Below, piece after piece: positions 1 through 41,567 of a stretch of 64,000 nucleotides of DNA. Each line of letters begins with the position of its first letter. Positions within the stretch are counted from its first letter, which is position 1. Made by a program: the position numbers and the translations under genes. Below the pieces are notes generated by a model, which was given only the letters and a program-made list of their open reading frames with translations, was not told where the DNA came from and did not search any database. Origin of the DNA: Thermoplasmata archaeon (GTDB lineage Archaea > Thermoplasmatota > Thermoplasmata > Lutacidiplasmatales > UBA184); contig DAHUZP010000026.1 in the NCBI GenBank assembly GCA_027306505.1, positions 1 through 64,000 on the forward strand, read 5' to 3'.

Positions 1-339
1 CAGACGCAGTTCGACACGGGCGAGCAGGCCAGAAGGCCGTGAGTAGTCCACGAGGAGGTCCACGTCCGAGGTGGGACTGGCCTCCCCTCGAGCGACCGAG
101 CCAAAGACCCGTAGGCGAGAGACCGCGAATCGTCGGCACAGACGGCGGATCTCTGTGCGATGGGGATCGATCACTTCACGGATCCCGAGACCCGTCGGAC
201 CGTTGGGGCGGGGACGGATCTTCGGTACGTTCCACAGCTTAGACTTGCAGCGAGGACAGATGCGTACCACCGAGGACCTGGGTCTCCACGAATAGACACA
301 ACGATAGCAGTGGACAAAGGAATCTGACGGGCCTTCCAT
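1..339 (-). CDS. Zinc ribbon fused to MNT-type nucleotidyltransferase domain (partial, runs off left edge)
   Basis: Manual reverse-strand translation MEGPSDSFVHCYRCVYSWRPRSSVVRICPRCKSKLWNVPKIRPRPNGPTGLGIREVIDPHRTEIRRLCRRFAVSRLRVFGSVARGEASPTSDVDLLVDYSRPSGLLARVELRL; CxxC...CxxC ribbon, then GSVARGEx5SDVDLLV. Not in ORF track because there is no stop inside the window. Confidence 0.85.
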   Translation of the reverse strand, partial: MEGPSDSFVHCYRCVYSWRPRSSVVRICPRCKSKLWNVPKIRPRPNGPTGLGIREVIDPHRTEIRRLCRRFAVSRLRVFGSVARGEASPTSDVDLLVDYSRPSGLLARVELRL

Positions 340-523
340 GCCCAAGAGGAAACCAGACCGGCTCTTGAAGCTACTGAAGTACCTTACCTCAGGGTGTGTT
401 ATGAAAGTAACTTCACGCGCCGGAGGGGTCGAGCGCGGACCAACCCCCTTCGAGCCGGTCCAGCGGATTCGAACCTTTCAGCCACCGGTACTAACCCCTG
501 AAATCTATGTGCATGAATGTGTA

Positions 524-608
524 TGCAGGGGGAGGGATTCGAACCCACGAACTCCTACGAGACCAGACCCTGAATCTGGCGCCTTTGACCAAGCTAGGCG
601 ACCCCTGC
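524..608 (-). tRNA. tRNA-Leu (anticodon CAG)
   Basis: Reverse complement GCAGGGGTCGCCTAGCTTGGTCAAAGGCGCCAGATTCAGGGTCTGGTCTCGTAGGAGTTCGTGGGTTCGAATCCCTCCCCCTGCA: 7-bp acceptor, anticodon stem CCAGA/TCTGG, long variable arm, T-loop GGTTCGAATCC. Confidence 0.93.
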
Positions 609-727
609 TCGCGCCCTCCCACAAGGCGGGTAGCTTAAGCCTGTCCCTGCAGCGGTCCGGGTCCACCCTGCCTCTCGGGCCGCTGAACCCCAGAGGCCCG
701 CGGGGGGAGCGCGGGGACGACGGTCCC

Positions 728-2734
728 TCAGCTCCAGACCAGGGGGGAAGCGTAGGTGAGCTCCAACGACACCGTAGCTCCCGAAGTGAGGGAGATGCAG
801 GCCATGAATGAGTCACCACCGTAGGAGGTGTAGTTCCCGGACCCGGAGGAGCTGAGCCCGGTGGGGAGGGACCCTGAGCTGGTGTTAAGCGGCACGTTCT
901 GGTAAGCGAGCCCCACTGGGAGCTGGCCGACAAGCAGGTAGACATCGGCCCCGCTCCACCACCGGAACGAGACCTTGCCCACGGGTAGCGTCGTGTTGTG
1001 GATGAAGGGCCAAGGATCGCTCTCGAGGGTCTGGAGGTTGCTCAGCAGGAACGCACAGGGGAGCTCCACGGTCGTCGTCACCGTGAAGGCCGGGACCAGC
1101 GTAGCAACGAGTACGATTGGGACGACGATGGCCGTCGCCACCAGGAGGACTCCCGGGCGGAGCCGTCGTCGTCGGGGTCGCACCGTTCCGACATGCAGCT
1201 TTTCCGAGGCGCTCTGCAAGAGCTCGTGCGGCCCCTCGATCCCTATCCACTCCAGCCGGCCGCTCTGGCGGCCCGACGGGTGGCCATGCTCGCCCCCGGT
1301 CGTGGAGAAGACCAGGTCCCCCACGTTGAACCAGCGATGGAAGAGCCCTCGACGTACGTAGAGGCCGGTCACGTCACGGTGGACGAGGCTGGAGCGCTCC
1401 CGAGCGGCTCCCGCCGGCGTGGAGAGGACCCGAAGGTCCGTCAGCGTGTAGCGCTGCCGCCACCACGTGAACAGAGAGAGGGCGAGGGGAAGCAGGAGCG
1501 CGAAGCCCAGGAAGAACTCGAGCATGGCGAGGTCTCCCGCCGTGTCGAACCAGGAGGCGATCATCACCAGAGGGAGGAAGATGACCACCACGAGGAGGGC
1601 CGCGCCCTCCCACTTCGGGAGGGCGATGGACCATCGCCAGGCCCCCACGACGACCAGGAGGTAGCCCGCGAGGTAGAGTGCGAGGACCGGGCCCACGACC
1701 GTGGTGATCTTGACCGAGCCCAGGATCAGCCCGACCAGCTTCTCGTTGAGATAGAAGCTCGCGTAGAAGAACAGGAACATCCCCACCAACACGGAGGCCG
1801 CCGCCGGGACCTGGAAGGCGTGCAAGAGCGAGCGGCGCAGCTTCAGGGCCGGTTTCTCCTCGGGGAGCAGGGCTCCGGGGGAGGGCTCGGTCCGGTACGG
1901 GTAGGGCCGTCCTTCGCGCGCGAAGAACATCACGAAGACCCAGACGTCCACCGCCAGGATCCCGATGACCTCGCCAACGGCTCCGGGAAGGCTCCCGAAC
2001 CCCGCGATGGCCCCGATGCCCGCGAGCAGGGCGCCCACCATGAGCAAGTAGGTCCCCCAGCCCTCCCGACGGCTGTCCGCCCCAGCCCTCGCGGCGACGA
2101 GCCCGCCGACCACCGCGAGCGGTATCCCGATCGCGAGCCCCCCCTCGCCCGCCTGTTGGAGCAGGTGGGTGTGAGCGGGAGAAGCCCCCGTCCAGGGACC
2201 GAAAGCGAGCGCAAGACCGATCGCCACGCCCCAGGCCCCCAGGGTCGCGTCGATCATCCCGGCGCCGATGGCGAGGCGGCCCTCACGACGCAGGCCAACG
2301 CCCCAGGTGAGGCCCGCGAGGAGAGCCTGGAGGAAGAACCACGCGGAGAAGAGGTCGTGCAGGTTCTGACCAAGGCTGGGGGAGGTCCCTGGAGGGTAGG
2401 GTCCGGGCCCCTGATGCCAGACCCCGATGCCGATGAGCAGGATGCCGGCGAGGAGGAAGTGGGCGCTCCCGAACCACTGGGTCCGGTTCCGGGCGATCCG
2501 GGTCAAGTAGAGCGCGAAGGCGACGATGAGGAGCCCGCTCGAGATCATCCCGGCGTTGTAGAGCCACGGATCGACGTGGCCGGCTCCGGAGGCCCCGAGG
2601 TAGCTCAACGCGAGGGAGGTGACCGACCACCAGGGGTTGAGGTAGGCACAGGTGAAGATCACCACCCAGGCCCAGACGCCGGCGATGGGCCCTAGGTAGT
2701 ACCCTTTCCGGGAGAAGAGGTCCGAGCGGCTCAT
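728..2734 (-). CDS. DUF998-family multi-pass membrane protein with C-terminal bacterial-PH-like domain and TM helix
   Basis: Start MSRSDLFSRKGYYLG; ATGA overlap with the upstream gene; N-terminal half resembles the DUF998 paralog at 2731-3597; LRVLSTPAGAARERSSLVHRDVTGLYVRRGLFHRWFNVGDLVF is PH_2-like. Confidence 0.7.
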   Translation of the reverse strand: MSRSDLFSRKGYYLGPIAGVWAWVVIFTCAYLNPWWSVTSLALSYLGASGAGHVDPWLYNAGMISSGLLIVAFALYLTRIARNRTQWFGSAHFLLAGILLIGIGVWHQGPGPYPPGTSPSLGQNLHDLFSAWFFLQALLAGLTWGVGLRREGRLAIGAGMIDATLGAWGVAIGLALAFGPWTGASPAHTHLLQQAGEGGLAIGIPLAVVGGLVAARAGADSRREGWGTYLLMVGALLAGIGAIAGFGSLPGAVGEVIGILAVDVWVFVMFFAREGRPYPYRTEPSPGALLPEEKPALKLRRSLLHAFQVPAAASVLVGMFLFFYASFYLNEKLVGLILGSVKITTVVGPVLALYLAGYLLVVVGAWRWSIALPKWEGAALLVVVIFLPLVMIASWFDTAGDLAMLEFFLGFALLLPLALSLFTWWRQRYTLTDLRVLSTPAGAARERSSLVHRDVTGLYVRRGLFHRWFNVGDLVFSTTGGEHGHPSGRQSGRLEWIGIEGPHELLQSASEKLHVGTVRPRRRRLRPGVLLVATAIVVPIVLVATLVPAFTVTTTVELPCAFLLSNLQTLESDPWPFIHNTTLPVGKVSFRWWSGADVYLLVGQLPVGLAYQNVPLNTSSGSLPTGLSSSGSGNYTSYGGDSFMACISLTSGATVSLELTYASPLVWS

Positions 2735-3597
2735 GCCCTGGAGGTGACCTCGCGTCGGGCGGGGCGGCGCGCGAAGAACATCAGGATCGCGGTGAGGTCG
2801 ATCGCGATGATGGCGATGGCCTCGACCTCCGCGACGGAGAGGTGCCAGGGATGGACCGTGAGGGCGACGAAGATCGGGGTCAGGATGGCCAGGCCCAGGA
2901 ACCCCAGGCTGAGACGCTTGCGGCGCTCCGCGAGCGCACCAAACCCCCAGATGAAGATCGAGAAATCGGCCTGGTAGAAGAACCAGTCCGAGACGAAGTC
3001 GTGGTAGGCCGACGGGTAGGGCGGACTTCCACCGCAAGTGGGGTTGCAGAAGATGATCGCGTTGTTCACGGTCTCGGTCGTCTCTCCGTGATAGACCCCC
3101 ACCAGGAACAGGAAGATCCCGGCCACCAGAAAGAACGCGCTGCCCGTGGACTGGATCTTGTTCCGCGAGTAGCTCACCATCGCGGCCGCGAAGAGCATGA
3201 GCAGGATCGCGGTCGGGAAGATCACCACGTCGTTGTAGATCCAGTAGAGGCCGGCGGCGGCCCCGGTGGAATTGGCGCCGGCGTCCCCCAACGCGCTGAA
3301 GGAGCTGTTATCGAACCGCCACCAGGAGCGGTTGAGGTAGGCATCGATGGAGACGGCGATCCAGAAGTACGCGACGGCCACCATCCCTGCCCAGAACCCG
3401 AAGGGGGGGAAGTGCACCTTGAGCCAGCCGACCAGCCGCGAGACCTGGCGGTCTATGGGGTGACGGGGACGGGGCCCCCCCCCCGGTGACGCCGGCCAGG
3501 CGGTCAGACTCGAGGGCTCGTCGGGTGAGCTCTCCAGTTCGGCCAACGATCGCCGCCTCCTCGACCATCGCGGCCACCCCCTTCCTCGGCATAATGC
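2731..3597 (-). CDS. DUF998-family membrane protein (start uncertain)
   Basis: Core VHFPPFGFWAGMVAVAYFWIAVSIDAYLNRSWWRFDNSSFSALGDAGANS...; translationally coupled to the next gene; 5' end complicated by a 10-C homopolymer at 3475-3484. Confidence 0.65.
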   Translation of the reverse strand, partial: ALCRGRGWPRWSRRRRSLAELESSPDEPSSLTAWPASPGGGPRPRHPIDRQVSRLVGWLKVHFPPFGFWAGMVAVAYFWIAVSIDAYLNRSWWRFDNSSFSALGDAGANSTGAAAGLYWIYNDVVIFPTAILLMLFAAAMVSYSRNKIQSTGSAFFLVAGIFLFLVGVYHGETTETVNNAIIFCNPTCGGSPPYPSAYHDFVSDWFFYQADFSIFIWGFGALAERRKRLSLGFLGLAILTPIFVALTVHPWHLSVAEVEAIAIIAIDLTAILMFFARRPARREVTSRA

Positions 3598-3687
3598 TAT
3601 CCCCGGCGCGGCGCCACGGCCCACGAGGGTCGAGCGAACGCTCTCGCACAATGATTATCTGAGGCGGGCAGCTCCTCCGGCCGAAGG

Positions 3688-5382
3688 ATGACCGGTCTGG
3701 GGGGGGTGTGCGTAGCCGCCTTCCTGCTGCTGCTGGGGGCTGGCCTTCCTCTGGGGGCGACGGGGACCGGTACCACGGCTTCTCCGATCGCCACCACCGA
3801 ACCCCCTCTTGGTCCGTTGGACCTCGCCCAGGCGAGCCTCGCTCACGGCCAAGGACCGGCCCAGGGCCATGCGTTCTCCTGCGCAAGCGTGGGCCCCCTC
3901 AGCCGGGAGTGCTCCGCCTCCACCCCCGCCGCTCGGTCCTCCTCCTCCCTGACCTCCCCGAGGACCGTGATCGGCTGGCAGCGCCTGTGCTCCTACCAGT
4001 CCTGCCCTCCCCCGGCGCGTGGCGGCGCCGGGATGACCTACGATCCCCTCACCGGCTACGTGGTGCTTTTCGGGGGCATCAAGAACCTGACCACGTCCTC
4101 CGGGACGACCTACAACGATACCTGGGTGTTCAAGAACGGCAACTGGTCCCAGCTCTCCATCCCGGGCCCCTCCCCGCGCCTCGGGGCCTACATGGCCTAC
4201 GACTACGCCGACCACTATGTGGTCCTCTTCGGGGGAGGGCCCTACCTCACGTTGAACAGCTCGCTCTACTACAGCGACACCTGGGAGTTCCAGAACGGCA
4301 CGTGGACCCAACTGCACCCCACGCTCTCCCCCAACCCCCGTGGCCTCGGAGCGATGGTCTGGGACCCCGTCGACGGTTACCTGCTGATGTACGGAGGTAT
4401 GTCCGGGCAGTACGACATCCACAGCGACACCTGGACGTTCGTCGGCGGACAGTGGCACAACCTGAGCCTCGCCGCCCATCCCCCACCGCTCCTCTCTCCC
4501 TGCATGACCTTCGATGCCGCGACCGGGTTCGTGCTGCTCTTCGGGGGAGCGAGCCCCTCGCCCGCGTTCATGTTCGGGGACGACCAGGCGCAGACCTGGA
4601 GCTACGCGCACCAGACCTGGACCAACCTCACCCCCATGATCGCCGGGACCGTACCAGATGGTCGGATCCTCGCGTCCATGGCCTACGACCCCGTCGATGG
4701 GTACGTGGTGCTCTTCGGTGGATGGAACACGACCACCGGTGCGCTCTTCGGGGACACGTGGGCGTTCGTCGGGGGCGCCTGGACGCTCCTCTTCGTGACC
4801 CCCTCGCCCGCGGCGGCGATCATCGGGTCCTCCCTCATCTCCACCCTTCCCACGTCAGGCCTCCTCCTCTTCGGGGGGATCGTGGGCACCTACACGAGCT
4901 ATCACGGGACCAATGCGACCTGGTCGTTCGGGCCGGCCCCCAACCTCGCGGAGACCCCCTACGTGGTCTCCTTCGTGGCGGGCCCCTCCGTCTGCAAGGT
5001 CGAGTTCAACGGCAGCGTGCAGGGGAGCGGTAGCTCGGTCGCCGTGCTGCCGGGTCCCTATGGCGCCGCCGCTCTGCCGTGCCCGGGCTACACCTTCGCC
5101 GGGTGGTTCACGAACGGCGGCGTGAACGTCGCCGGGGAGGGCACCTCCACGATGACGCTCGACGTGACCGGCAACGGCTCGCTCTCCGCCTATTACCAAC
5201 CGATCGCGCTCACGTCCTTCAGCCCTCAGCCGCTCGAGCTGGGCGGCGTCGTCGGCGGGCTCGCGCTCGTGCTGCTCGTCGTGGTCGCGATCTGGCGAAG
5301 GGGCCTGTCGCGCTCGCGTCTCCCCCCGCCTAGGCTGGAGGGGGTGGGGGCTCGGACCACTGGGGACCCCCCGACGAGCTGA
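3688..5382 (+). CDS. Secreted/anchored kelch-repeat (galactose-oxidase-like propeller) surface protein
   Basis: Signal peptide MTGLGGVCVAAFLLLLGAGLPLG; repeated motif YDPxxGYVVLFGG...DTWxFxxGxWxxL; C-terminal TM and basic tail. Confidence 0.85.
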   Translation: MTGLGGVCVAAFLLLLGAGLPLGATGTGTTASPIATTEPPLGPLDLAQASLAHGQGPAQGHAFSCASVGPLSRECSASTPAARSSSSLTSPRTVIGWQRLCSYQSCPPPARGGAGMTYDPLTGYVVLFGGIKNLTTSSGTTYNDTWVFKNGNWSQLSIPGPSPRLGAYMAYDYADHYVVLFGGGPYLTLNSSLYYSDTWEFQNGTWTQLHPTLSPNPRGLGAMVWDPVDGYLLMYGGMSGQYDIHSDTWTFVGGQWHNLSLAAHPPPLLSPCMTFDAATGFVLLFGGASPSPAFMFGDDQAQTWSYAHQTWTNLTPMIAGTVPDGRILASMAYDPVDGYVVLFGGWNTTTGALFGDTWAFVGGAWTLLFVTPSPAAAIIGSSLISTLPTSGLLLFGGIVGTYTSYHGTNATWSFGPAPNLAETPYVVSFVAGPSVCKVEFNGSVQGSGSSVAVLPGPYGAAALPCPGYTFAGWFTNGGVNVAGEGTSTMTLDVTGNGSLSAYYQPIALTSFSPQPLELGGVVGGLALVLLVVVAIWRRGLSRSRLPPPRLEGVGARTTGDPPTS

Positions 5383-31760: not shown

Positions 31761-32297
31761 TCAAGCGAGCGCGGGTCCCAGCGGGAAGCGGGCGAGCGTG
31801 GTGTGGCGCGCTCCCTCCGAGGTGAGCAGGCTCGACTTGAGCTCGACGGAACGGACCCAACCGGAGGCGAAGACGGTCTTCTCATGCCGCTCGATCAGTC
31901 CCCGGAACGTCGCGGTGGGGGACCCCGGGCGGATCCGTCGTACGGTGACGTGGGCCGTGAAGGGGCGGTCCTCGACCGGGAAGCCCAAGCCCGCGAGGCC
32001 CCCTTCGGTGCGACGCGCGAGGTCGGCGAGGGGGGCGGCCCCCTCCGAGACCCCGACCCAGAGGACCCTCGGTCGCGCAGAGGAGGGGAAGGCCCCCAGG
32101 CCCCGGAGGGTGACGGGGAAGGCGGAGGCTCCGTGCAGCGCGCGTTCCAGGGTCCGTCCGATCTCCCCGACGCGGTCGTCGGGGACCTCCCCCAGGAACT
32201 TCAACGTGAGATGCGGAGGGGGGGTGGGGGACTCATGGGACGGTCCGAGGCCGGGGACGTGGAAGGTCGGAACGTCCACCGACACGAAGAGCCGCAG
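31761..32297 (-). CDS. thpR: RNA 2',3'-cyclic phosphodiesterase / 2'-5' RNA ligase-like (LigT/ThpR)
   Basis: LRLFVSVDVP; two HxT motifs PHLTLKFLGEV and FTAHVTVRRI. Start codon uncertain; overlaps or abuts the end of the methyltransferase gene. Confidence 0.85.
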   Translation of the reverse strand: MRLFVSVDVPTFHVPGLGPSHESPTPPPHLTLKFLGEVPDDRVGEIGRTLERALHGASAFPVTLRGLGAFPSSARPRVLWVGVSEGAAPLADLARRTEGGLAGLGFPVEDRPFTAHVTVRRIRPGSPTATFRGLIERHEKTVFASGWVRSVELKSSLLTSEGARHTTLARFPLGPALA

Positions 32298-32299
32298 GG

Positions 32300-33493
32300 C
32301 TACCCCTCCCGACGGGCGCCCTCGAGGGCCGTGAGGGTGGGGGTGCCGAACCGGGCGTGGGCCCGCTCGAGCCGGGCTCGCGCGACACGCAGCGCGACGG
32401 GGGAGGCGTCGATCCCGATCCATCGCCGGTGCAGCTCGTGCGCGGCGAGCAGGGTGGTGCCCGAGCCGCAGAACGCGTCCAGCACCAGGCTCCCGGGGTC
32501 CGAGGACGCAGCGATCACGGTCCGCAGCAGCTCCAGGTTCTTCTCCGTGGGATAGGAGGGATAGGGGGGGTCCTTGAACTCCCAGATGTCCTGGCGCTTC
32601 TTCCCACGGGGCACCTTCTCCTCAGCGTAGATCCGCAGCCGAGGGTTGCCGCGCTCCGACCACTCGATCCTTCCCTCCCCGTCCAGCCGCGTCAGCGTCG
32701 AGGGGTCGTACCTCCAGTGCCGGCCCTCCGGGGGCGGGAGGCCTTTCCACGACCGTCCGGTGGGGCCGTCGCGGGTCACCCCCGGGGCGTGCAGCGGGTT
32801 CGTGGTGTACCGGCGTCCCTGGGGGTCCAGGAGAGGAAAGAGGCGCTCGACGTCCTCCGGAGGAAGGCGTTCACGCGACTCGTTCCAGATCCGATCGGCG
32901 GTCTTCGAGTAGAACAGGAGGACGTCCTTCACGTTCCCGTAGGCCGCTCTTCGGAAGTTCTTCGGATTGCACTTGACGCGGGCGATCTCGTTGATGAACC
33001 GGTCCTCGCCGAAGACCTCATCCAGGAGGAGCCGGACGCGGTGACCCACCTTGCAATCGATGTGTACGTAGATCGAACCGCGGTCGGAGAGCAGTCCCCG
33101 GAGCTCCTTCAACCTCGAGCGAAGGAAGGCGAGGAACGGGTCACCGCGCAGGGTGTCCAGGTAGGCGACCTCGGAGGACCCCCGGCCCACCTGGAACGCC
33201 CTCCCGGTGGAGAAGGGGGGGTCGATGTAGACCAGGTCCACCTTCCCGCGGATGGCGGGGTCCGCCTTCAGCCGGAGGAGCCACTCCAGGTTGTCCCCCT
33301 CGAGCAGGAGCCCTTCCGGGCGCTTCCTCTCCGTCCCTCCCGGCGGGGGGGCTCCCGAGGAGGGGGAGGAGGAGGCGGCCGAGGGCGCTCGACCCCTCCG
33401 GGACCGACGGTCGACCCCGGCGAGGGAGGGCCCCGCCCCCGGGAACGTCGGGGCCGCCTCCATCGAGGGGGGACCGCTCACGTCGACCGCCAC
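32300..33493 (-). CDS. Beta-class (permuted) site-specific DNA methyltransferase
   Basis: LEGDNLEWLLRLKADPAIRGKVDLVYIDPPFSTG (motif IV first) then GSLVLDAFCGSGTTLLAAHELHRRWIGID (motif I later). Confidence 0.9.
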   Translation of the reverse strand: MAVDVSGPPSMEAAPTFPGAGPSLAGVDRRSRRGRAPSAASSSPSSGAPPPGGTERKRPEGLLLEGDNLEWLLRLKADPAIRGKVDLVYIDPPFSTGRAFQVGRGSSEVAYLDTLRGDPFLAFLRSRLKELRGLLSDRGSIYVHIDCKVGHRVRLLLDEVFGEDRFINEIARVKCNPKNFRRAAYGNVKDVLLFYSKTADRIWNESRERLPPEDVERLFPLLDPQGRRYTTNPLHAPGVTRDGPTGRSWKGLPPPEGRHWRYDPSTLTRLDGEGRIEWSERGNPRLRIYAEEKVPRGKKRQDIWEFKDPPYPSYPTEKNLELLRTVIAASSDPGSLVLDAFCGSGTTLLAAHELHRRWIGIDASPVALRVARARLERAHARFGTPTLTALEGARREG

Positions 33494-36420
33494 CCCTCGG
33501 GACCCTCCTGCGAGCTATAGGGGTGCGGGGGAAGGACCCATACCCTGGCGCGTTCGGGTCCGGCCCCCTCCCTTTGGAGGAAGTTGCGGAGCCTGCGCGC
33601 GTCCGCCTCCGAACCGACAAGGAAGAGGACCAGGGCCCTCCCGTCCCGGCCCTTCTGGAGGGAACGGCGCAGTCGCTCTGCCTGACGGACCCCGCTCACC
33701 TCCGCCTCCACGTGCACGTCCTTCCCGCTGGAGAAGGACCAGAGCGGTCCTCGGCGGGCCCGGTCCAGTTCCTCCCACCATTGCGTTGGCGCCCAGCCCT
33801 GCGTCGTCTCCGGTCCCGGAAGGACCCTGAGGACCCCGTCGGGCGTGCGGCGGGCAAAGCTGCCCTGGGGTGGGAGCTCCAGCGCGAGCCCCTGTCGGGC
33901 GAAGAACCGGAACGCCTCCCAGAGCAATCGACGGTGCTCCTCGCTCTCTCGGGGGGCTCCGGTCTCGTCCCGGTACCCCAGACGCGCCCAGCCGGCCGGG
34001 GTCAGCTCGATGGTATCGGCCCGACCCGCCGTTCGGGCATCCACGATCCAACGTCGCGCGCGGGCCTGTCGCTCCGCCTCCTCGAGCTCCCAGCGGGAGG
34101 AGCGGCCGCCCCGGTAGAGCGAACGGTCCGAGCTCACCTGCGGGAGCTCGCCCAGGTCCAGCGGGGTCCCCAAGGCCTGGGCACGCGCCGCGCCCAGGAG
34201 CACCGTCCGCTCCGCCTCCTGTGCGACCGAGCCCGGCCCGTGGGCGGCCACGAGCTCTTCGGAGCGGACGTTGCCGTGCTCCCAGGCGGAGCGCTCCGAG
34301 GCCTTGCTCCACCCGGTAACGTCACCGGGGACGGGTCCCGGCAGGGTGAGCAGCTCCGGTCGGCCTTCTCCGTCGCACCGCACCCAGGCGGCATGCGGCG
34401 GGAGGGTGACGATCTGCTCGGCGAGCGAGGGCCACGCGTCGCTCGAGCGAGCTCCCCTCGCCGTCCCACGCGTCCCTCCCCATGGGGTCCCTTCGCTCGC
34501 CCCTCCGTTCCCTGCGCCGCCTCCCACCGCGAGCGAACCCGCGACGCGCAGCGCTTCCGCGGGCGGGAGCCGGAGCGCGATGAGGGTGCCGGCCGCGTCG
34601 AGGGGTGCGCTGGGAAAGAGCCGCTCGAGCCTCGACGCGGACTGCGTCGCAAGCACGCACGCGACGCCGAACTTCCGGCCCTCCTCCACGATCGCGCGGA
34701 GCAGCCGGGGCGAGAACCCCTGCGCCTCGTCGAGGACGAGGAGGACCGAGACCGAGCCTTGGTGGAGGTTCGAGGGACGCCGCAGGAGGCCGAGGTAGGT
34801 GCGGGCGAGCAGCAGGTTCGCGACCGTGAGCGAGATCCCCTCCCCGAGCTCCCCCTTCGGGAGGTGGACGACGAGGCTCCTTCCCCGGGCGAGCTCGACC
34901 TCCGGCCGGAGCTTCTTCGGGCCCGCGCAGGCGACCAGTTCCGCGACCCTGGGGGAGAGGTGGACCTTGGAGAGGCGGTTCTGGCTCGAAGCGAGCAGGT
35001 CAGGCTGCCGCCGCAGGAGCGAGGGCAGCTCTCGAAGACCGTCGGCCAACGCGGGACTGCGCACTTGCTGGGCGAGACGCGGCGCGTGGTCCAGCGGGTG
35101 GTAGAGCAGGTCCGCGACGTCCCGGAGGTTCCCGCCCTCCTGGAGCACGGCCCGGATCCCCGACTCGAGGAAGCGCTCCATCCGAGGGCCCCAGTACTCC
35201 TCCCCTCCTCCGGGGGTCGGGCGAAGGGCCGAGAGCACCTCTCCGGAGAGCAGGTCCTCCTCGGCCGGAGTGAGCCCCGGCTCCCGGAAGGGCGAGCGAG
35301 CGCGCTCTTCCTTCGGCCCGGTCGCCCCTTCGGTTCCCGCACCCGCCAGCCCAGTCTCCATCACGTCCATCCCTACCACCCCGTCACCGGGGCGACGGGT
35401 CGCGTCCATCACGGCGACAAGGTCGGGGGCTTGCGGGCCCATCCTCGCGACGACCGCCGGTCCCAGGTCACCGTGGAGGTCGAAGAGCACGAAAGGCACC
35501 CCGAGCCGGAGCGCGCTCTCGGCGGCGACGTGGGCGAGGAACTGGGTCTTCCCGCTGCCCGTCGTGCCGACGACCGCGACGTGCCGCAGGAGCGAGGGGA
35601 GCGAGAGCCCGACCCCTCGACCATGCCTCCAGGAGGTCCCCAGCGGTAGCTCGCGCCCCGCCGGTGCCTCCCGGGAGCTCGCGCCCGAAGGTGCCCCCGG
35701 AGCGTAGGGGAAGGTCGGGACCCTCCACGGGGACGCGAGCACATCCTCCCCGGGAGGGACGAGCGGTCCGCTGCCGAACCGATCGACCGCGTGGCGTTCC
35801 CACTCCTTCCACGCGTGAGCGTGGGCGGCCGACCCCGGCGCCCAGGGCTCGAAACGGGCCCCCAGCTCCGCCGCGAGGGCGACGCCGCGTCGGTCCCTCA
35901 GCTCGATCGCTCCCCCCACGTCGCTCGCCTCACCGAGCAGGCGCACCGACGCCTGGAGACGGTCGGGGTCCGAGGCCCAGAACAGGCCCTGGACCACCCA
36001 GCGGCCGGGGACCGGCCCGGGCCCGTCCCCGACCGGCCGTCCCGCCGGGATGGAGAACGGAGGGAGGGGGGCGCCCACCCCCTCCCTTCCCTGGGGGCCC
36101 TCGCCCTTCCAGCGCACGAGACCGAAGGCGCAAGGGCCTCGATGACCGGGGGGCACGGGGACGCTCCCGGGTGGGCGGCTCACCAGCCGGTACGGCGAGG
36201 ACGGAGCGGAGCCTCCGGCCGCTCCCAGTACCTCTGGCGAAGCCCGGATTCGGAGCGCCCTCCCCCAGGGGGCCTCCTCCTGCTCTAGGACGAGGTGCGA
36301 GCCGGGGGAGGCTCGGAGAGCCTCCAGCCACCGTCGTACCAGGGCCGAGGCGGGGAGCTCCGCCCCCAGGGCCCAGACGTCGGTCCAGCGGGGGGCGGTC
36401 TGGGTGCGGTCCCCTTTCAT
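33478..36420 (-). CDS. HerA/VirB4/TraG-like ATPase with C-terminal PDG...ExE (nuclease/replication-relaxation-like) domain
   Basis: Walker A VVGTTGSGKTQFLAH, FDLHGDLGPAVVARM, Walker B VLLVLDEAQGFSPRLLRAIVEEGRKFGVACVLATQSASRL; C-terminus RRTPDGVLRV...DVHVEAEVSGVRQAERLRRSLQKG. Confidence 0.85.
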   Translation of the reverse strand: MKGDRTQTAPRWTDVWALGAELPASALVRRWLEALRASPGSHLVLEQEEAPWGRALRIRASPEVLGAAGGSAPSSPYRLVSRPPGSVPVPPGHRGPCAFGLVRWKGEGPQGREGVGAPLPPFSIPAGRPVGDGPGPVPGRWVVQGLFWASDPDRLQASVRLLGEASDVGGAIELRDRRGVALAAELGARFEPWAPGSAAHAHAWKEWERHAVDRFGSGPLVPPGEDVLASPWRVPTFPYAPGAPSGASSREAPAGRELPLGTSWRHGRGVGLSLPSLLRHVAVVGTTGSGKTQFLAHVAAESALRLGVPFVLFDLHGDLGPAVVARMGPQAPDLVAVMDATRRPGDGVVGMDVMETGLAGAGTEGATGPKEERARSPFREPGLTPAEEDLLSGEVLSALRPTPGGGEEYWGPRMERFLESGIRAVLQEGGNLRDVADLLYHPLDHAPRLAQQVRSPALADGLRELPSLLRRQPDLLASSQNRLSKVHLSPRVAELVACAGPKKLRPEVELARGRSLVVHLPKGELGEGISLTVANLLLARTYLGLLRRPSNLHQGSVSVLLVLDEAQGFSPRLLRAIVEEGRKFGVACVLATQSASRLERLFPSAPLDAAGTLIALRLPPAEALRVAGSLAVGGGAGNGGASEGTPWGGTRGTARGARSSDAWPSLAEQIVTLPPHAAWVRCDGEGRPELLTLPGPVPGDVTGWSKASERSAWEHGNVRSEELVAAHGPGSVAQEAERTVLLGAARAQALGTPLDLGELPQVSSDRSLYRGGRSSRWELEEAERQARARRWIVDARTAGRADTIELTPAGWARLGYRDETGAPRESEEHRRLLWEAFRFFARQGLALELPPQGSFARRTPDGVLRVLPGPETTQGWAPTQWWEELDRARRGPLWSFSSGKDVHVEAEVSGVRQAERLRRSLQKGRDGRALVLFLVGSEADARRLRNFLQREGAGPERARVWVLPPHPYSSQEGPEGWRST

Positions 36421-36611
36421 GGTCCCTCCATCAGCGTCCGGAGGGGAGCCGCAAGGACGAACCGGTGCACGATCCGTCCGGGCCCTACGACCCAGAGGAC
36501 GAGGCTCCCGTCGTGGGCTCGGCTGACCCAGAGGCGCGGGGCGATGGGGATCCTCGGGCTCGTCCCCAGGTCACGAACGAGGCTCTCCGGTCGAGGCTCG
36601 GCGGCGAGCAT
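36417..36611 (-). CDS. Small hypothetical protein (64 aa) coupled to HerA-like gene
   Basis: ATGA overlap with the downstream HerA-like start; stop of the upstream ORF abuts its ATG. Confidence 0.6.
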   Translation of the reverse strand: MLAAEPRPESLVRDLGTSPRIPIAPRLWVSRAHDGSLVLWVVGPGRIVHRFVLAAPLRTLMEGP

Positions 36612-37043
36612 CTAGGCCACCTCGTGCGTCCGGAGCTCGTTCGCGCACCGGAGCAGCTCCGCCGCCACGCGGGCGATCCCGGGAAGTCCGGAGGCGATCG
36701 CCCACCGGATCGGCTCGCATCGGGAGAGCTCGCGCCAGATGGGCAGCCCCTCCCTCGACGGCAGGCGGACGTACCAGACCGGCGGGCGGTGGGGGCTGAG
36801 GACCAGGTGGGCGAGGGGGGCGACGGTCAGCGAGAGGGGGATCCTCACCCCTCCGAGGCAGACCGATCCGGCGGGGAGACCGGCGAGGACCAGGTCGCAG
36901 CCCTCTCCGGGAAAGGCGGGAACGGGGCGTTCCTGGGGCCCTCCGTTCGTGAGGGTGCTCCCAGGGTGGGCGGGCAAGTTCGGGTTCGGCGCTACGCAGG
37001 CGATCCCTCGGGCCTGTCGGCCCGTCAGCTCTTCCAGCTGCAT
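36612..37043 (-). CDS. Hypothetical protein (143 aa), first gene of HerA/methyltransferase operon
   Basis: MQLEELTGRQARGIACVAPNPNLP...PPVWYVRLPSREGLPIWRELSRCEPIRWAIASGLPGIARVAAELLRC; contiguous with the next ORF. Confidence 0.6.
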   Translation of the reverse strand: MQLEELTGRQARGIACVAPNPNLPAHPGSTLTNGGPQERPVPAFPGEGCDLVLAGLPAGSVCLGGVRIPLSLTVAPLAHLVLSPHRPPVWYVRLPSREGLPIWRELSRCEPIRWAIASGLPGIARVAAELLRCANELRTHEVA

Positions 37044-40540: not shown

Positions 40541-40845
40541 ATGAAGCAGCTCGTGCGCGAAGGTTGGAACCGGCGATCCTACGCCTACCGGCCCGGGCGC
40601 ACCCACGTGGACGGCACCCAGCACTCCGACCGCGAGTGCTGACGATGGCTCCTCCCGGTCCTGCAGGAGCTCCCCCCGGGTGCGCCGGTCCTTGACCTGG
40701 GGTGCGGGGCGGGCATCCCTGCCAGAGGCTGGCTCTCCAATCGCTTCCAAGTGACGGGGGTCGACCTATCGGAGGTCCAGGTGGAGCGTGCCCGTCGCCT
40801 GGTGCCGAAGGGGAGCTTCCACCTGGCGGATCCAACGGGCCATGG
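40541..40845 (+). pseudogene. Truncated class I SAM methyltransferase with in-frame TGA
   Basis: MKQLVREGWNRRSYAYRPGRTHVDGTQHSDREC*RWLLPVLQELPPGAPVLDLGCGAGIPARGWLSNRFQVTGVDLSEVQVERARRLVPKGSFHLADPT; TGA at 40640-40642, then abrupt switch to transposase sequence. Confidence 0.8.
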
Positions 40846-41567
40846 TGGACCTGGCCCTGTCCAACCCGAAGGACCGGGGCTACGCCGGACCCTGGACGCC
40901 CGACCGGCTACGTTTGATCGTCGTGATGGAGGGGACCGTGGAATCGATCCCCAAGGAGCGCCTCCGGGAGATCCTGCACGAGGCGATCTCCTTCCAGGCG
41001 GTGAAGACCTGGAAGGAAAGCAAGGACCCCCAGTTCCGGGAGAAGGTCCGGCGTCTGAGGGCACTGACCCACCGCCCTCACAACCCTCCGGTCGTGGTCT
41101 CGGTGGACGAGATGGGACCGATCCAGCTCGAACCCTACGGCGGCCACAGTTGGGCGCGAGAGGGGCACCCGGATCGGGTGCGGGCCACCTATCGGAGGTT
41201 CGACGGAGTTCGCCACTTCATGGGAATGTACGACCGCTATCACCGAACGATCCGAATGTACATGTCGCGTCGCAAGTGTGGCGCGGACTGGGTGAGGTTC
41301 CTCCGCTACGTGAGACGGTGGTACCGCCCGAACGAGCGGATCTACCTGATCCTGGACAACCTCTCGGCGCACACCACGCCTGCCGCCCTTCGAGAGGCTC
41401 GGCGCCTGAGGATCACGTACGTCCCGATTCCCACGAGTGCCTCCCACCTGAACCCCATCGGGAGCCAGTTCCGAGTGCCGAAACATCGGGCGCTGGAAGG
41501 ACGCGACTACCGGAGCTGGCGCGAGCTCGGGTGGGAGGTCCAGAAGGCGATCCACGAGCTCAATTGA
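40840..41567 (+). mobile_element. IS630-family transposase, N-terminally truncated, third catalytic residue replaced
   Basis: PPVVVSVDEMGPIQ, YLILDNLSAHTTPAALREARR, SHLNPIGSQFRVPKHRALEGRDYRSWRELGWEVQKAIHELN; the family normally has NPIE at the third site. Confidence 0.85.

Follow-up and report, generated by a model that had tools for sequence, protein, structure and literature searches.

The minus strand of the window (the whole 64,000-nucleotide stretch of DNA that was analysed) carries five tightly packed genes, at the centre of which P0003 joins a HerA/VirD4-like ATPase to a predicted nuclease domain in a single chain. Rather than a novel restriction system, the putative operon probably represents inherited machinery for DNA processing, because its methyltransferase, judged by sequence comparison, is a recent and local addition. 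The best explanation, to which we give about an even chance, is a core operon of small partner(s), translocase-nuclease and LigT whose product would pump and cut DNA in the cytosol, with the methyltransferase as a late insertion.

Gene content and layout of the operon

The genes are, in order:

P0001, 36612-37043, minus strand: first gene, small protein of 143 aa
P0002, 36417-36611, minus strand: small protein of 64 aa
P0003, 33478-36420, minus strand: 980 aa, HerA/VirD4-like ATPase, winged helix and PD-(D/E)XK-like nuclease
P0004, 32300-33493, minus strand: 397 aa, GTG start, beta-class DNA methyltransferase, M.Tsp45I-like
P0005, 31761-32297, minus strand: 178 codons, LigT / RNA 2',3'-cyclic phosphodiesterase

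The initial annotation had described five minus-strand open reading frames with tight junctions, and this description holds: the coordinates agree, the TAG of P0001 adjoins the ATG of P0002, P0002 and P0003 overlap at ATGA, P0003 and P0004 overlap by 16 nt, and the P0005 frame begins immediately past the P0004 TAG. The operon region is 70-74% GC and long spurious ORFs are common on both strands, so that ORF length alone is little evidence; the genes are established by homologues kept in the same order elsewhere (the ATPase in 43 further loci, LigT in 33). Genomes of the Lutacidiplasmatales are about 69% GC and 2.1 Mb (PMC9287336). The window's genome, G000, is a 2.96-Mb assembly that is ~88% complete; its family is referred to as f1, and G011 and G012 are its congeners. 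Upstream of the operon, at a distance of a few kb, lies a DDE_3 transposase-like ORF (window 40788-41567, plus strand).

P0005 scored 107.5 bits against TIGR02258 (cut-off 65.7), in keeping with its designation as LigT-like, and no other LigT match was found in the genome; on account of this score and of its being the sole copy, it is probably a housekeeping RNA 2',3'-cyclic phosphodiesterase. Its frame has a CTG (32295-32297, minus strand) at the position where ATG or GTG is found in 16 of the 20 start positions located among orthologous loci (the window included), and P0005 either uses a non-canonical start or starts elsewhere.

P0003 combines a HerA-like ATPase with a putative nuclease domain

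Three parts were distinguished in P0003:

Residues 1-255, 35656-36420, minus strand: N-terminal alpha/beta domain without a transmembrane helix
Residues 256-700, 34321-35655, minus strand: translocase ATPase with Walker A G285-K291, Walker B D564-E565, R582 and Q593
Residues 701-966, 33523-34320, minus strand: winged helix and PD-(D/E)XK-like nuclease with D861, E905, E907 and K923

The N-terminal domain may resemble ferredoxin-like repeats, and no membrane segment was found in P0003, the maximum 19-residue hydropathy across the first 260 residues being 0.66. The ATPase matches DUF87 and TrwB_AAD_bind in Pfam, and the TrwB/TraG ATPase domain (PF10412) was detected in 40/40 members, with 27.3 bits for P0003 against a cut-off of 20.5. 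Within this part G285, G288, G290, K291, D564, E565, R582, K583 and Q593 are invariant in 40 aligned orthologues. An AlphaFold2 model (pLDDT 82 for the whole of P0003, 89 for the C-terminal 237 residues) was compared with known structures using Foldseek, and the whole model gave HerA (4d2i) as its best match (E = 5e-11), along with SIR2-HerA, TrwB and DndH-C, the last having the top target-normalised TM-score (0.71) among the 50 matches listed. By curated model score P0003 does not count as a canonical HerA, reaching 16 bits against NF040819 and 23 bits against NF040937 (cut-offs of 970 and 800, respectively), the former cut-off being strict enough that known archaeal HerAs used as controls also fall below it. 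Its best NCBIfam score was to CedD (40 bits, cut-off 600) and its best PADLOC match was to mad8 (~45 bits), which matches all 40 members (to 6e-18).

The C-terminal part contains the nuclease motif PD...EAE...K on a predicted alpha-beta core, and E825, H829, Q852, D861, E905, E907 and K923 are invariant in the 40 aligned orthologues, four of these (D861/E905/E907/K923) forming the predicted acidic/lysine active site. BamHI provides a precedent for E-x-E replacing E-x-K. Foldseek analysis of the C-terminal domain alone against the PDB gave no significant match, the lowest E-value being 0.06; of the 50 matches listed, Can2 (8q3y; prob 0.97, E = 0.26), which we take to be a PD-(D/E)XK nuclease, had the highest probability. 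The motif, the conservation and the predicted topology are therefore the main grounds for the nuclease assignment. Of the HerA-like ATPase and nuclease-like fusion proposed initially, the ATPase is thus borne out by both profile and structural comparison and the nuclease by its motif and invariant residues, its structural search having returned nothing significant.

The ATPase-nuclease locus is conserved and vertically inherited

Relatives of P0003 were found in 83 of the 106 genomes of the order (a count that may include paralogues among a few weak matches) and in 33 of the 39 near-complete ones, with full-length orthologues recovered essentially within one family of one order. Comparison of 41 orthologous loci within the host's family shows a conserved core made up of the P0001 family, the ATPase-nuclease fusion and LigT. 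The P0001 family, which has no match in Pfam, NCBIfam, PADLOC or PHROG, is directly upstream of the ATPase in 29 loci. In 32 loci LigT follows downstream in the same orientation, in most cases starting 1-80 nt past the ATPase stop; the distance is 1118-1180 nt in the window and G012, where the methyltransferase lies between the two genes, and 3.4 kb in one locus, and in nine loci no LigT is within reach.

Relatives of P0002 were identified in G012, G009, G006, G007 and G004, where they either separate P0001 from the ATPase gene or immediately precede the latter; G004 holds two P0002 repeats, and G012 also keeps the stop-start adjacency of both small genes. A leave-one-out HMM built from training sequences chosen by eye recovered P0002 at E = 2.5e-6 against 2556 shuffled sequences. 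Membership of P0002 in the P0001 family was considered and is unsupported (E = 0.18 and 1.2). The small genes, which had been suggested to be accessory parts, are therefore conserved alongside the ATPase, and the small partner, ATPase and LigT are kept together across most sampled genera while the methyltransferase is not. Such adjacency of small partner and ATPase, and of ATPase and LigT, persisting despite heavy divergence, makes it very improbable that these genes are loose neighbours with unrelated functions that share a promoter by chance, even though a sole-copy, likely housekeeping LigT and a methyltransferase that comes and goes would suit that explanation.

The P0003 tree requires 6 changes of genus label, which is the minimum possible and was equalled in 0/200 shuffles. 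In close pairs, the dN/dS (omega) of the ATPase was 0.05-0.38 and that of the nuclease domain 0.12-0.44, which shows that purifying selection acts on the two enzymatic domains alike. Since the tree follows the genera, both domains are constrained, and the Walker and D/E/E/K residues are invariant, P0003 is a vertically inherited chromosomal gene.

Two other origins were examined and rejected. A viral or plasmid gene was rejected for P0003, as no relatives were found in viral contigs or phages and plasmids gave only distant VirD4-like matches. Nor is it part of a sporadic defence island, being near-fixed in its archaeal family and vertically inherited; a scan of ten flanking genes gave no other convincing defence gene, since the mad2 and Csa3 matches in the flanks correspond to a generic methyltransferase and to an ArsR-type HTH. 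Separately, three loci (L103, L104 and L114) encode a second, paralogous ATPase in the same family (~830 aa), apparently without the nuclease domain. In L109 (G001:C39, 5581-6030), the frame of a P0003 relative is broken ahead of the nuclease motif, and part of its ATPase sequence is duplicated in inverted orientation, reflecting either a rearrangement or an assembly error.

The methyltransferase appears to be a late insertion

P0004 (METHYLTRANSFERASE) matches PF01555 (N6_N4_Mtase; 137.6 bits, cut-off 26.7, E = 8e-40) and has the motif order DPPF before FCGSGTT, in agreement with its annotation as a beta-class N6/N4 methyltransferase. Relatives at E <= 1e-20 occur in 7/106 genomes, and the gene is present in the operon only in the window and G012, being absent from 39 of the 41 loci. 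The window's species and G012 are well diverged, with ATPases 55% identical and methyltransferases 74% identical. By this distribution the methyltransferase appears to be a recent, genus-level newcomer to the operon. In G011, of the same genus, a 57%-identical P0004 homologue faces a Tsp45I-family endonuclease (PF06300, E = 6e-56); at this locus (L095, G011:C52) the methyltransferase (1516-2721, plus strand) and the endonuclease (2696-3475, minus strand) are convergent and form an apparently complete restriction-modification (R-M) pair. P0004 relatives on bacterial plasmids (45-50% identity) have as their neighbour either a type II endonuclease or a gene labelled hypothetical. The Tsp45I endonuclease (PF06300) was not found in G000 (~88% complete) or G012. 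As its G011 relative faces an endonuclease that was not found in the window's genome, P0004 is probably an orphaned M.Tsp45I-type enzyme, and the simplest history is that a Tsp45I-type R-M system lost its endonuclease and its methyltransferase ended in the P0003 operon. The Tsp45I site is GTSAC, and P0004 probably methylates adenine within this predicted site. Residues 1-55 of P0004 (window 33329-33493, minus strand) form a proline/serine-rich low-complexity N-terminal extension beyond the region matched by relatives.

The initial annotation had placed the methyltransferase at the core of a modification plus translocase/nuclease system, and this was not borne out by the rarity of the gene in the operon and in the order. 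A true modification-restriction system, in which methylation by P0004 labels the host's GTSAC sites, the translocase-nuclease destroys unmarked DNA and the small proteins serve as sensors, is quite improbable. It would explain why two well-diverged species keep the methyltransferase at one position, with a 16-nt overlap with the ATPase gene in the window, and 'HerA/FtsK capture' restriction systems of the DndH type exist (PMC10853773); however, the translocase-nuclease occurs without the methyltransferase in 39 of 41 loci, the methyltransferase goes back to an R-M system of the Tsp45I type, and GTSAC is not avoided. GTSAC avoidance in host DNA as a trace of restriction was rejected on an observed/expected ratio of 1.01 in the window's own genome. 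P0004 suggests a case of a restriction methyltransferase that shed its endonuclease and lodged within an unrelated DNA-processing operon.

Relatives of P0003 occur in mobile or conjugative-looking contexts

Proteins with a layout similar to that of P0003 were found in mobile or conjugative-looking contexts in L101, L102, L113 and a Halalkalicoccus plasmid (L132). L101 (G000:C23), in the same genome as the window, encodes a second ATPase plus PD-(D/E)XK-like protein of 1057 aa (70-3243, plus strand), which is adjoined by an integrase-like ORF (3541-5214, minus strand) that was read by eye and has no Pfam domain; L101 is a probable integrated element. In L102 (G005:C55), L113 (G011:C29) and L132 (Halalkalicoccus jeotgali plasmid 2), a VirB4-like gene is followed by a VirD4-like, P0003-similar ATPase, an arrangement that is a probable archaeal conjugation module. 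Distant relatives with an EVEVS/EAE-type motif are also present in other families of the class. In view of these mobile-looking contexts, it is plausible that P0003 is a domesticated mobile-element ATPase-nuclease, and P0003 bears on how cells recruit conjugation-type ATPases.

DNA transfer would fit the contexts of these closest same-layout proteins, which counts against the best explanation given above. P0003 would then be a domesticated part for conjugation or import, a VirD4-type coupling ATPase that carries a relaxase-like nuclease and is kept on the chromosome as the Ced system is, for which Ced/Ted set a precedent (PMC9905601). The TrwB_AAD_bind domain throughout the family, CedD as the best NCBIfam score and the VirB4-like genes beside similar-layout relatives all point this way. 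We nevertheless regard a transfer role as unlikely, if still appreciable, given that P0003 has no transmembrane segment, that the CedD match is far below its cut-off, and that no VirB4, VirB6 or pilin-like genes were recognised around the window's operon or conserved beside the 41 loci, whose neighbours are partly annotated. Of the observations named in the initial annotation as refuting it, ATPase homologues routinely occurring without the methyltransferase were seen; routine occurrence without the small genes, or embedding in recognisable conjugation gene sets, was not.

Proposed activity and comparison with known systems

In the favoured explanation, that of an inherited cytosolic machine, the ancestral operon would have comprised three to four vertically inherited genes, namely one or two small partners, the single-chain translocase-nuclease and LigT. 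P0003 would be a soluble HerA/VirD4-type ATPase, expected from its homologues to form a ring that, with the winged helix and small partners helping it grip DNA, pumps DNA to the PD-(D/E)XK-like domain at its C-terminus, where it would be cut. Its job would be the cytosolic processing of DNA ends or of incoming foreign DNA, against which it counts that no gene beside the operon indicates repair or defence. LigT would be a co-transcribed housekeeping RNA enzyme, and the methyltransferase would have been inserted late, in one genus, from a Tsp45I-type R-M system minus its endonuclease.

No curated family was found whose members join ATPase, winged helix and nuclease in a single polypeptide accompanied by conserved small partners. 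Literature searches on MADS, Tsp45I and HerA/NurA in Thermoplasmatota brought up nothing directly usable. P0003 shares its PF10412 ATPase domain with the VirD4/TrwB/TraG coupling proteins and has similar-layout relatives on archaeal elements, but differs in lacking a membrane anchor and recognised T4SS genes nearby, in its vertical descent and in its fused nuclease. Like DndH and the 'HerA/FtsK capture' systems, it holds a nuclease and a HerA/FtsK ATPase in one protein (PMC10853773), whereas it has no SF2 helicase domain match, its domain order is reversed (ATPase first), and neither DndF/DndG nor phosphorothioation genes were seen. The mad8 ATPase and mad2 methyltransferase similarity to MADS is generic for an ATPase plus a methyltransferase; the mad8 match is weak, and the mad1-mad8 set is incomplete, with no other mad genes seen nearby. 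P0004 belongs to the same methyltransferase family as the Tsp45I R-M system, in which the endonuclease faces the homologue in the congener G011, but in the window's genome it is embedded in another operon.

HerA is present and NurA undetected in the host's family

P0003 also resembles HerA-NurA, the archaeal DNA-end resection pair, in being a HerA/FtsK-class translocase with a nuclease, and its top Foldseek matches are HerA structures. It differs in being a single protein whose nuclease part is PD-(D/E)XK-like, whereas NurA has an RNase H fold, and in that a separate HerA is also encoded in the window's genome. HerA was found in 30 of 31 f1 genomes. In the window's own genome (~88% complete) no NurA-like neighbour of HerA was seen, and PF09376 detected NurA in 0/61 f1 genomes, as did profile A4, built from 12 Thermoplasmata NurA proteins. 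As a positive control, profile A4 matched 15/20 chosen genomes, nearly all outside the profile, at 1e-67 to 1e-113, and in a 400-genome sample of the class it matched 86 genomes, most below 1e-50 and none from f1. NurA is strong in ~20 other families of class Thermoplasmata. P0003 bears on the question of which machinery handles DNA ends in archaea that have HerA but undetected NurA.

A domesticated mobile-element-type translocase-nuclease could have become a core gene and displaced NurA, so that a HerA-NurA-like machine made of one chain and aided by two small partners would exist beside a NurA-less HerA, and its nuclease could have taken over DNA-end resection after NurA was lost in f1. We consider this improbable: P0003 has its own ATPase and should make HerA unnecessary, and a very divergent NurA or another nuclease could act with HerA. 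The family distribution bears on both sides. Families f2 (G001) and f11 likewise have a P0003 relative and no detected NurA, whereas some members of f19 (G244, G256 and G393) have both, and independent losses are few. Because of these few cases and the f19 exception, an anticorrelation by family between P0003 relatives and NurA is suggestive and is not claimed.
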